Part shown: positions 14,613 to 56,163 of the stretch, piece after piece
Layout: each line of letters begins with the position of its first letter
Position numbering within the stretch: position 1 is the stretch's first letter
Assembly: GCF_000186245.1 (NCBI RefSeq)
Contig: NC_014935.1
Location: 434,001 to 498,000 of the forward strand
DNA length: 64,000 bases
DNA from: Nitratifractor salsuginis DSM 16511
GTDB lineage: Bacteria > Campylobacterota > Campylobacteria > Campylobacterales > Sulfurovaceae
Direction: 5' to 3'
The notes under the pieces: model-generated
Seen by the model: the letters and a program-made list of their open reading frames with translations, nothing else
Databases searched by the model: none
What the model was told of the DNA's origin: nothing
Translations under genes and position numbers: made by a program

Positions 14613-14659
14613 AATTGAAGAACACTATTTTTCTTGACAAAGGCATTGAACCGTGTCAA

Positions 14660-14736
14660 ACTACCCACTACCCACTACCCACTACCCACTACCCACTACC
14701 CACTACCCACTACCCACTACCCACTACCCACTACCC
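14660..14736. repeat. Eleven perfect tandem copies of ACTACCC
   Basis: Eleven unbroken seven-base units, 77 bases in all, followed by a partial unit. The array ends 16 bases before the -10 element of the next lipoprotein gene, so the -35 region lies in or beside the repeat. Perfect short tandem repeats tend to change copy number by slippage; seven is not a multiple of three, but here the array is outside coding sequence. Confidence 0.95.
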
Positions 14737-14752
14737 ACTCTTTTCTTCGTGT

Positions 14753-50510: not shown

Positions 50511-51722
50511 ATGTTGGACTTAAAAAAGATCGGACGGGCGAGGAAGCGGATCGCGGATGTGGTGCTCCATACTCCTATGGCCTATGCACCGATTCTCAGT
50601 GAACTGAGCGGCTATGAGATCTATCTGAAAAAAGAGAACCTCCAGCGCACGGGATCGTTTAAACTGCGTGGGGCCTTTAACAAGATCGCTTCGCTCGTGG
50701 AAGAGGGACGCCGCAACGGTGTGGTGGCCGCCAGCGCGGGCAACCACGCCCAGGGAGTCGCTTTTGCCGCCCGCTATTTCGGGATCGACGGGACGATCGT
50801 GATGCCCGAATCGACCCCCCTGACCAAGGTGATGGGGGTTCAGGAGCTCGGAGCGGAAGTGATCCTCAAAGGGAGCAACTACGACGAAGCCTATGCCTAT
50901 GCCGTGGAGTACGCGAAGGAGAAGGGAAAGGATTTCGTCCATCCCTTCGCCGACGAAGAGGTGATGGCGGGGCAGGGGACCATTATGCTGGAGATGCTGG
51001 AAGAAGAGCCGGAGCTGGATGCGGTGGTGATCCCCGTAGGCGGAGGCGGCCTGATCTCGGGCTGCGCCGTGGCGGCCAAATCCCTCTCGCCCGAGATGAA
51101 GGTGATCGGCGTCGCTTCAGCGGGTGCCCCGGCGATGAAGCTCTCCTACGATGCCGGCAAACCCATCGACACCACCGGGGTACGGACCATCGCCGACGGA
51201 ATCGCCGTGCGCGATACTTCCCCCGTGACCCTGGAGTATATCCGCAAATATGTGGATGAGATGAAACTGGTGGGAGAGGATGAGATCGCCAATGCCATCC
51301 TCTTTCTTCTCGAGCGCCAGAAACTGACGGTTGAGGGCGCCGGAGCGGTGGGGGTGGCCGCCATACTCCACAAGCATCTGGATCTGCCCAAAGGGAGCCG
51401 TATCGGTATCGTGCTCAGCGGTGGGAACATTGACGTGACGATGCTTTCATTGATCATCGAAAAGGGACTGATGAAATCTTTCCGAAAGATGAAGCTGGTG
51501 GTCACCCTCATCGACAAGCCCGGCGCTCTGGAGCGCTTCGCCGGACTGATGCGGGAAGTGCAGGCCAACATCGTCCAGATCGGTTACGACCGCACTTCCA
51601 CGGACCTGGAATTCGGCGATGCCCACGTCAGTGTGGCCCTGGAGACCAAAGGAGCCGAACATCAGGAGAAGATCCGCCAAGCTTTGAGAGAAAACGGTTT
51701 TCCCTTCAGAGAAGAACACTAG
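50511..51722 (+). CDS. ilvA: Threonine ammonia-lyase
   Basis: PLP enzyme making 2-oxobutanoate for isoleucine. 403 residues: PLP lysine in RTGSFKLRGAFNK, SAGNHAQGVAFAA, PVGGGGLISGCAVAAKSL, and a single C-terminal ACT domain (MKLVVTLIDKPGALERFAGLMREVQ). One ACT rather than two is the short type. A long upstream extension of the frame is not credible; ATG 50511 has AGAGGAA. ilvB and ilvN follow at 53786, and RidA (15155) would deal with the reactive intermediate. Confidence 0.94.
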   Translation: MLDLKKIGRARKRIADVVLHTPMAYAPILSELSGYEIYLKKENLQRTGSFKLRGAFNKIASLVEEGRRNGVVAASAGNHAQGVAFAARYFGIDGTIVMPESTPLTKVMGVQELGAEVILKGSNYDEAYAYAVEYAKEKGKDFVHPFADEEVMAGQGTIMLEMLEEEPELDAVVIPVGGGGLISGCAVAAKSLSPEMKVIGVASAGAPAMKLSYDAGKPIDTTGVRTIADGIAVRDTSPVTLEYIRKYVDEMKLVGEDEIANAILFLLERQKLTVEGAGAVGVAAILHKHLDLPKGSRIGIVLSGGNIDVTMLSLIIEKGLMKSFRKMKLVVTLIDKPGALERFAGLMREVQANIVQIGYDRTSTDLEFGDAHVSVALETKGAEHQEKIRQALRENGFPFREEH

Positions 51723-51746
51723 CGTCGTCGCTTTTTGCAACGACGA

Positions 51747-51875
51747 ATGAGGAATGAGGAATGAGGAACTACGGTAAGCGCCGTGAGACGGCGCCTTCTT
51801 CCAAAAAGAAAGACTTTGCAGAGCAAAGTCATCCTGAACTCCTCACTCCTCACTCCTCACTCCTCACTCACAAAT
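51747..51875. repeat. Composite heptad element with inverted heptad ends
   Basis: GAATGAG x3 and GAACTAC (51746-51773); hairpin GCGCCGT-GAG-ACGGCGC (51778-51794) followed by CTTCTTCC; a second hairpin GACTTTGC-AGA-GCAAAGTC (51812-51830); then TCCTCAC x4 (51838-51865), which is the reverse complement of GTGAGGA. The two heptad arrays face each other, so the element could fold back on itself. It overlaps the 5' end of the ppx/gppA reading frame. Confidence 0.8.
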
Positions 51876-52792
51876 ATACCATCGGTTTCGACCTGGGCTC
51901 CAACACCCTCCGTGCCGTCAAATATGACTGTACTTCCCGGGAGTTCGTCGCCGAGTATGAAAAGATCGTCCGCACGGCAGAGGGGCTGGTCGAAAGCGGG
52001 CGGATATCGGAAGCGGCGATTGGGCGGGTGATCGAGGCGGTCCATGAAGCCAGGGAGCGGCTCGGCTGCGACGATGCGAAGATCCGGGCGGTGGCCACCG
52101 AGGCGATGCGCCGGGCGGCTAATCGTGAGGAGGTGCTGCAAAGGATCGAGGATGAAACCGGCATCCGTTTTGAAGTGATCGACGGGGAGGAAGAGGCGCG
52201 GTTGACCCTCTTGGCGGTGCGAGAGCGTCTGAAGCGTTTGGGGATCGATGCTGAAAGTTTCGTGATGGTGGATATCGGCGGGGGATCGACGGAGCTGGTT
52301 TTCAACTATCGAGAAGAGATAGTCAGCCGGAGCTTTCCTCTGGGGATCGTGACCCTGAGCCAGGAGGCGGGGGGCTGGCGCAATGTCCCCGCCGCGCTGG
52401 AAAAGCATTTGCCGACGCTGAAAGGATTTATCGGGGATGTCTATGCCCACCAGGGTAAGCCCAGGCTCTTCAGCGCCACCGCCGGAACCCCCACGACGGT
52501 GGCGGCGCTGAAGTTGGGGATGGATTACGAAAGTTACGACAGTGCCAGAATCAACGGGACCCGGCTCTGTCGTCAGGATCTGGAGAAGACGCTCCAGATG
52601 CTTTTGGCTATGAACCCCGAAGAACGTCAAAAGGCGGTGGGCGTGGGCCGGGATGATCTCATCGCCGCGGGGATTTTGATCTTTGATGCACTCTTCGATC
52701 TGCTGGGCTTTGAGGAGTGTATTGTCATTGACGACGGGCTCAGAGAGGGAGTGGCGGTTTCGCTTTGCGAGGATGAAACGGCGAGGGACTAG
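51761..52792 (+). CDS. Exopolyphosphatase / pppGpp phosphatase
   Basis: Ppx/GppA family. Family core begins at residue 40: YTIGFDLGSNTLRAVKYD, then KIRAVATEAMRRAANREEVL, VIDGEEEARL, VMVDIGGGSTELVF, SFPLGIVTL, SATAGTPTTVAALKLGM. Members hydrolyse polyphosphate or pppGpp. Between ATG 51761 and the core there is no other ATG, GTG or TTG in frame, so the first 38 residues are encoded by the heptad element. The ATG is itself part of a GAATGAG unit, and the preceding units provide a GAGG site. Shorter than E. coli Ppx (513); the C-terminal part is missing as in GppA-like short forms. Confidence 0.85.
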   Translation: MRNYGKRRETAPSSKKKDFAEQSHPELLTPHSSLLTHKYTIGFDLGSNTLRAVKYDCTSREFVAEYEKIVRTAEGLVESGRISEAAIGRVIEAVHEARERLGCDDAKIRAVATEAMRRAANREEVLQRIEDETGIRFEVIDGEEEARLTLLAVRERLKRLGIDAESFVMVDIGGGSTELVFNYREEIVSRSFPLGIVTLSQEAGGWRNVPAALEKHLPTLKGFIGDVYAHQGKPRLFSATAGTPTTVAALKLGMDYESYDSARINGTRLCRQDLEKTLQMLLAMNPEERQKAVGVGRDDLIAAGILIFDALFDLLGFEECIVIDDGLREGVAVSLCEDETARD

Positions 52793-52797
52793 AAACC

Positions 52798-52905
52798 GGT
52801 AATCTTAGTCGCAAGAGTATTGGTCATTGGTCATTGTAGCAGTGGAGAAAAATTACTAGTTATTAGTTACTAGTTACTCGGTTACTCATTACTCCGTTAC
52901 TCTTT
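52798..52905. repeat. Mixed heptad region after ppx/gppA
   Basis: GTCGCAAGAGTATTGG (52808-52823) is the reverse complement of the start of a CTTGCGA block; then TCATTGG units (52824-52836) and TTACTAG-type units (52853-52898). It looks like pieces of several heptad types joined together. The coiled-coil lipoprotein gene ends in this region. Confidence 0.65.
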
Positions 52906-53679
52906 ATTTTTGTATTCGATCAACTTCGGATGATCTTCATCCAAAGGTCCTTGTGCCAGGAGGCGGACCAGTTCGATCTTGACCTCTTTGTCGGTGGTCT
53001 TGGCGGCGACGATTTCCAGGATCTTTTCGATCTGTTCGTGGCGTTGGCGGTTGGCCAGCATACGCATTTCGTGCTCCCGCTCCTCCTGCCGTTCCCGCAG
53101 GTGGCTCTTCCGGCGGTATAGATAAAGCAGGATACCGACGATCAGCAGGAGCACGATGAGGAAAATGGCCGCGATGAGGTAGCGGTTTTTCAGCCGGGCT
53201 TCCAGGGCGCTGATCTTTCCGGCATACTCCCCCTTGATGGTTTCGACCTTTTCCCGGCTCTGGGCTTCCAGTCGGGCGATCCGTTCCCGGGCGGCTGCCT
53301 GTGCTCGGGCGGTTTCGGCTTCCAGGGTTTTGAGCCGTTCTTCCTTTTGGGCGACGAGCCGGGCATACTTCTCTTTTTCCCGGGCGAGCTCCAAGGCTTT
53401 TTGTGCCTCTATTTCCCGGGTCCTCTCTTGCATCGCTTCACGATTTTTGGATTGTTCCAGCTCAAGGGTTTTGAGGGCTTTGGTCTTTTCGGCTTCGATC
53501 CGGGCCAGCTTCTCTTCGTGCGCCATGCGCAGCTCCTCCAGGGAAGGGGTGTGGGGCGCTTTTTTTGTCATTGCCGAAGTCATAAGGTAGGGGGAAACCT
53601 GCTTGGAAGCCTTTTGCTTTTGGCAGCCTCCCAGCAGGAAAAACCCGATCAGCAGTGTCAGCGGAAGCATTTTTGGCAT
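52897..53679 (-). CDS. Coiled-coil lipoprotein with a second membrane helix
   Basis: A 260-residue protein. Lipobox LLGGC at 15-19 (Cys19), then about 110 residues of Glu/Lys/Ala/Arg coiled coil (LEELRMAHEEKLARIEAEKTKA onward), a clear membrane segment at about 168-190 (YLIAAIFLIVLLLIVGILLYLY), and a charged 65-residue C-terminal tail (IEKILEIVAAKTTDKEVKIELVRLL). A lipid anchor plus a transmembrane helix is unusual; it would place the coil in the periplasm and the tail in the cytoplasm. No family recognised. The end overlaps heptad repeats. Confidence 0.7.
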   Translation of the reverse strand: MPKMLPLTLLIGFFLLGGCQKQKASKQVSPYLMTSAMTKKAPHTPSLEELRMAHEEKLARIEAEKTKALKTLELEQSKNREAMQERTREIEAQKALELAREKEKYARLVAQKEERLKTLEAETARAQAAARERIARLEAQSREKVETIKGEYAGKISALEARLKNRYLIAAIFLIVLLLIVGILLYLYRRKSHLRERQEEREHEMRMLANRQRHEQIEKILEIVAAKTTDKEVKIELVRLLAQGPLDEDHPKLIEYKNKE

Positions 53680-55955: not shown

Positions 55956-56163
55956 GGTCATTGCTCATTGGTCATTGGTCATTGGGGAGCGATGGCGGCA
56001 CATTTTTTTTGACATTAGACGTTTGACATTAGACGTTTGTATTTTGGGTGAGAAAGTTTTGGGTCTATATCTTCCTATACTCTCGACCTCTCAGCCTCCC
56101 ATCTATAAAAAAGAAAGCGTTGCCACGCAACGCATACCACAATTTCTCATTCCATCCGCTCGC
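55956..56163. repeat. Mixed heptad region with a reversed hairpin element
   Basis: GGTCATT, GCTCATT, GGTCATT, GGTCATT (55956-55983); two copies of the 14-base unit GACATTAGACGTTT (56011-56038), itself two heptads; and, in reverse orientation, the hairpin GCGTTGC-CAC-GCAACGC (56117-56133) followed by ACCACAATTTCTCATTCC, the reverse complement of the heptad start of the GAATGAG element. The lpxD start lies 38 bases further on. Confidence 0.75.

Follow-up and report, generated by a model that had tools for sequence, protein, structure and literature searches.

A dispersed heptad-repeat element as the probable source of the start codon and N-terminus of ppx/gppA in Nitratifractor salsuginis

Introduction

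Heptameric simple sequence repeats with a preference for four units and an orientation rule around genes have been published for Xanthomonas and Nostoc (PMC4692102). Like those Xanthomonas and Nostoc repeats and the cyanobacterial STRR heptamers, the arrays of N. salsuginis described here have a 7-nt unit, comprise about four units and are dispersed in the genome, the coding strand being G-rich after stop codons and C-rich before genes. Unlike them, many unit classes coexist here and are joined with hairpins into a composite element; the arrays lie in frame within conserved enzymes and appear to provide a start codon. The GGG G-tract motif reported there is not the main class here, where sequence inspection found that the main heptad classes carry GG. 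The TAACTGA repeats of marine Beggiatoaceae, according to the available part of their description (PMC4679880), are likewise heptanucleotides, mostly intergenic or near starts, with some over stops or in ORFs; unlike the present arrays, they consist of a single unit, and most of their intragenic copies fall at the ends of proteins or within hypothetical ones. Loss of a native start is not reported in that part of the description.

Rickettsia palindromic elements, as cited in two reports (PMC3733652, PMC1950309), also lie in frame in likely functional proteins; these are palindromic and CGTC-tagged, whereas the intragenic parts found here consist of heptads in tandem rather than palindromes, and at a given site their class differs from species to species. 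In Haemophilus influenzae, heptanucleotide repeats place non-triplet units within coding sequences or at their 5' ends, as here; those tracts are long and strain-variable (PMC2651432), whereas the present ones are short, as seen in one genome per species. The GTAG-tagged REP/RAYT system differs in its tag, which is GGTRAGC here. Heptamer arrays, their length, their orientation and occasional intragenic copies are therefore already known (PMC4692102, PMC4679880), as is in-frame repeat insertion in proteins in the case of the Rickettsia elements. In a limited survey of the literature no report was found in which heptads take the place of a native start codon, in which a start is rescued across several frames, or in which the heptad class turns over at fixed loops of core enzymes.

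The ppx/gppA gene and its leader

The window, that is, the whole stretch of 64,000 nucleotides that was analysed, corresponds to positions 434001-498000 of the 2,101,285-bp single-contig genome of the vent bacterium N. salsuginis, and features of its ilvA-ppx region are collected in Table 1. Ppx, a polyphosphate/ppGpp phosphatase, carries the invariant residues of its family, as judged from alignment columns, together with the Pfam Ppx-GppA domain, whose match covers residues 62-336; NCBIfam and PDB matches start at residues 42-44. About 37 element-encoded residues, predicted to include the peptide ELLTPHSSLLTHK, lie between the ATG at 51761 and the core. As an earlier note on this DNA had stated, they are without family similarity, and family matches begin only at residues 42-62. 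That note had placed the start of the conserved core at about 51880; the core begins at about 51872, and, as a small correction, the native start position corresponds to the codon at 51878-51880 (Thr40).

Table 1. Features of the ilvA-ppx region (window coordinates)
Feature	Position	Strand	Evidence
ilvA-type threonine ammonia-lyase, 5' neighbour of ppx	50577..51722	+	PF00291 1.8e-81, PF00585
ilvA stop TAG	51720-51722	+	sequence
First small hairpin, 3' of ilvA stop, CGTCGTCGC-loop-GCAACGACG	51722..51745	+	sequence, fold
G-rich heptad array (GAATGAG)3.4 = AATGAGG array, ATGs in three frames	51745..51768	+	repeat search, sequence
ppx/gppA, 343 aa, conserved core from ~51872	51761..52792	+	PF02541 4.6e-44
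Probable ppx start ATG, supplied by the array	51761..51763	+	sole start open into core; clade comparison
GGTAAGC-tagged hairpin GCGCCGTGAGACGGCGC, dispersed element, translated GKRRETA	about 51773..51795	+	sequence, dispersed copies
Second hairpin GACTTTGC-AGA-GCAAAGTC, present too in the L002 element copy	51812..51830	+	sequence
C-rich heptad array (ACTCCTC)4.6 = (TCCTCAC)4.6, translated LLTPHSSLLTH	51838..51869	+	repeat search
ACC (Thr40), aligned with initiator Met of orthologues outside the repeat-bearing clade	51878..51880	+	alignment
Further heptad arrays (ATTGGTC, TTACTAG/TTACTCG) 3' of ppx	52819..52906	+	repeat search

The G-rich array offers three ATGs (51747, 51754 and 51761), one in each frame. 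The first two run into TGA/TAA after 5 and 7 codons, and only the third is open into the core (51761-52792), with an in-frame TGA just upstream (51755-51757); the next in-frame start is a GTG at residue 90, well within the conserved core. The ATG of a heptad unit is thus the sole usable upstream start, as had been proposed, and the composition given earlier for the leader, two hairpins and TCCTCAC heptads, was likewise borne out when these parts were located in the sequence. A known RNA family was rejected, as an Rfam search returned sub-threshold matches only, and a phage origin was rejected because there is no similar phage record.

A dispersed composite element

In an unbiased sample of genome stretches amounting to 464 kb, 65 arrays of period 7 were counted, against 12 of period 8 and 0-1 for periods from 4 to 6 and from 9 to 13, so the array of the leader is not a chance product. 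The length of the heptad arrays in this sample peaks at 29-35 nt, or about 4.4 units. In the ++ gene context the arrays near the left gene are G-rich (20/21) and those near the right gene C-rich (12/12), and the -- context mirrors this orientation. The parts follow each other in a composite order, in which G-rich heptads after a stop codon precede the GGTRAGC hairpin, sometimes a second hairpin, and then C-rich heptads. All five GGTRAGC hairpins in the 464 kb have heptads just upstream, and locus L002 shows the parts in the same order as the ppx leader, which is therefore a full copy of this dispersed element. Two pattern searches of 41 genomes found AATGAGG arrays in this genus and in one other member of the family (G018), and CCAAAAT arrays in this genus only.

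Mobilisation by a RAYT/IS200 system was considered and, on the two loci inspected, not supported: Y1 transposases do exist, with nine matches in the genome, but no tagged hairpins flank the transposase genes at these two loci. Seven IS200-like Y1 transposase matches (L176-L182) have identical scores.

The 5' end of ppx in related genomes

The earlier note had suggested comparing the 5' end of this gene in close relatives. This was done for the leaders of the nine species of the repeat-bearing clade (N. salsuginis, or G000, included), several of which are draft MAGs, and for orthologues outside it. Outside the clade, the alignment places the ppx ATG at the position equivalent to Thr40, and the gene often starts directly at the ilvA stop, as in ...CACTGATAATGATAGCG (L025). 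Within the clade, the codon at the native start is ACC/ACG/TCN/GCC, and the start falls within repeat-derived sequence. In eight species (G000, G001, G002, G005, G006, G007, G009 and G011) repeat-derived sequence separates ppx from the ilvA gene ahead of it, and none of these species has ATG, GTG or TTG at the native position. The native start is absent from all eight repeat-bearing sister species of N. salsuginis, seven of which have the ilvA linkage. The exception is G010, where ppx is unlinked to ilvA and starts outside any clear array; the junction has been rearranged there, possibly at flanking arrays, since ppx is convergent to ilvA (L014). The leaders of G005 and G006 contain the C-rich array only, and their start is a GTG one base 3' of the ilvA stop. 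G012, of the same genus and without the repeat, starts ppx at a TTG a few codons 5' of the core.

Because repeat leaders linked to ilvA are common to eight species of the genus, the replacement of the start is ancestral to the repeat-bearing clade, and hence old. This comparison supports the proposal that the original 5' end gave way to an element which now provides the start codon, as the relatives outside the clade have an ATG at Thr40, the clade lacks it, and copies of the element occur elsewhere in the genome.

The strongest evidence for an array-supplied start comes from the sister species G001 and G002, whose ppx genes share 86.6% DNA identity. Their leaders are nearly identical save for a 28-nt block of exactly four ACTCCTC units, a frameshift, and the in-frame ATG is at leader position 41 in G001 and 48 in G002, one heptad (7 nt) apart. 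Provided that the MAG sequences are accurate, this pair is direct evidence for initiation inside the array. An array with an ATG every 7 nt, in three frames, would allow the next ATG to take over when heptads are gained or lost.

Heptad arrays inside other proteins

Heptad arrays are also placed in frame in likely functional proteins: SdhA/FrdA-like, SdhB-like, PdxA, AsnB and the PDH E2 component. A flavoprotein of the SdhA/FrdA family contains an array encoding NSSLLTPHSSL (L003:1505-1536), and its SdhB-like partner contains two, with peptides of one type (L076:910-947, 1118-1148). CCAAAAT arrays encode IIQNPKSKIQN in PdxA (L069:2188-2222) and EIQNPKSKIQN in the asparagine synthase AsnB (L096:17883-17918), and similar in-frame arrays lie in two further proteins, one of them sulfite/nitrite-reductase-like and the other without NCBIfam match (L092:14348-14380, L093:9511-9545). 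The linker of PDH E2 is built of three different heptad arrays (L051:1591-1802). Intragenic arrays are mostly of about four units, and their units are stop-free on the coding strand, except for the G-rich array of E2, which ends ahead of its stop phase. The heptad peptide is predicted in SdhA, PdxA and AsnB, as exemplified by IIQNPKSKIQNR. In the three families compared, one loop holds a different heptad class depending on the species, and distant members are without array; the variants of the PdxA loop across species are QNPKSKIQN, NSQFSILNSQF and SSSSIFHLPSSIF. The SdhA/FrdA-like and SdhB-like proteins, both with in-frame arrays, are encoded by adjacent genes and form a succinate dehydrogenase/fumarate reductase-like pair.

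Translation initiation and alternative explanations

It had been argued that GAGG in the heptad array, ahead of an ATG, can work as a ribosome site. The GAGG at 51749-51752 lies 8 nt 5' of the ATG at 51761, whereas the ATGs at 51747 and 51754 are without GAGG at that spacing. The argument thus fits N. salsuginis and a few relatives; however, the Shine-Dalgarno site is absent from the G007 and G009 leaders and weak or absent in other relatives too, and in N. salsuginis pairing with the TCCTCAC array is predicted to mask it. Translational coupling to ilvA would be no less plausible than initiation of ppx on its own, because G007 and G009 are without a site, G005 and G006 start on the ilvA stop, and the N. 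salsuginis site is predicted to be paired. The spacing between ATG and hairpin was also considered as proof of selection on the start, and was rejected: the dispersed copies L059 and L066, which encode MRSLGKRCCAT and MRNCGKRCCAT, and the copy at L050 have the same spacing as the ppx leader. Both this spacing and the likeness of the MRN-x-GKR-x-ATP peptides are properties of the element, since intergenic copies show them.

The pairing of the two arrays has a regulatory reading, in which the G-rich and C-rich arrays form an RNA switch and keep the ribosome site of ppx hidden until a signal or ilvA ribosomes open it. The predicted fold of the N. salsuginis leader is much stronger than that of shuffled sequences (z -6.4), and the GAGG/ATG region, at a mean unpaired probability of 0.19, is predicted to pair with the TCCTCAC array. 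Such a masking fold is not formed, by the same kind of prediction, in G001, G005, G006, G009 or G011; the G007 leader also folds well, but with a less paired start. A conserved fold masking the start was rejected: of the leaders with both arrays, just those of G000 and G002 form it strongly. The complementarity of the arrays is a consequence of their general orientation rule, and a switch is unlikely. An improbable explanation, too, is that ppx is phase-variable, with a 7-nt tract in its coding sequence changing copy number and thereby leaving translation on, off or weak. Seven is not a multiple of three, (TCCTCAC)4.6 lies within the coding sequence, heptanucleotide repeats are reported as potential mediators of phase variation in H. 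influenzae (PMC2651432), and in silico four units leave an ATG, two or five only GTG/TTG, and three or six no start. However, the tracts are short (about four units) and of uniform length genome-wide, so they do not look hypermutable, judged from one genome per species, and the differences between species are compensated rather than off states.

We consider it very unlikely that the leader is untranslated and that translation starts at a non-canonical codon beside the core, such as ATC at 51881-51883. The core does begin there and most relatives have an ATH codon at that position, but G001 has GTA, so the codon is not kept, and the preceding pyrimidine-rich heptads are without a Shine-Dalgarno site. 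The compensated frame shift between G001 and G002 also stands against it, as do the open frames of the clade's leaders, 9/9 in the ppx frame and 6/18 in the two control frames (Fisher p=0.001, an optimistic value because the nine species are related and not independent). That ppx is decaying and its leader junk is hardly credible: the native start is lost, but the 343-codon ORF is intact, with its invariant family residues, and orthologues are present in 13/13 genomes of the genus.

Proposed model and significance

Very probably, then, ppx has lost its native start, and the element supplies both start codon and N-terminus. The model, taken as a whole, proposes that the ancestor of the repeat-rich Nitratifractor clade came to carry a composite heptad element in the short stretch between ilvA and ppx, and that the native ATG was lost. 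Comparison of the leaders suggests that translation would now run from an ATG of the element (51761 in N. salsuginis) through the hairpins and the C-rich array, resulting in an N-terminal tail of 14-39 residues. A change of frame caused by downstream gain or loss of heptads would be rescued by a neighbouring ATG, for which there is one natural case from which generality may be expected, and initiation would probably depend both on GAGG sites within the array and on coupling to ilvA translation. Arrays of this kind have repeatedly entered stop-free, loop-like positions of other proteins in frame, ppx being the instance at a 5' end. A wider proposal, possible but doubtful, is that an undescribed mechanism copies or inserts the heptad arrays of Nitratifractor as cassettes of about four units, that these invade core-enzyme loops in frame and are swapped between classes during speciation, and that arrays of overlapping ATG/TGA heptads serve as start cassettes for several frames, either keeping ppx translated when the frame changes or switching it.

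The locus offers a concrete case in which repetitive DNA would give a gene its start codon and N-terminus, with a natural rescue of a frame shift between sister species, and it ties this case to central metabolic enzymes that such repeats have invaded in frame. Bacterial heptamers, a largely neglected class, can thereby be tested for a role in generating new protein sequence and translation starts, and caution is advisable with automatic start-site annotation in repeat-rich genomes.

Other repeats

Some arrays depart from the usual length. A perfect (ACTACCC)11.4 array at 14657-14739 of the window is far above the usual four units, and very long AATGAGG arrays of about 21 and 12 units are found elsewhere in the N. 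salsuginis genome (G000:C1 99209-99355 and 1878344-1878427). At 56008-56039 of the window there is a period-14 repeat, TTTGACATTAGACG, in 2.3 perfect copies.
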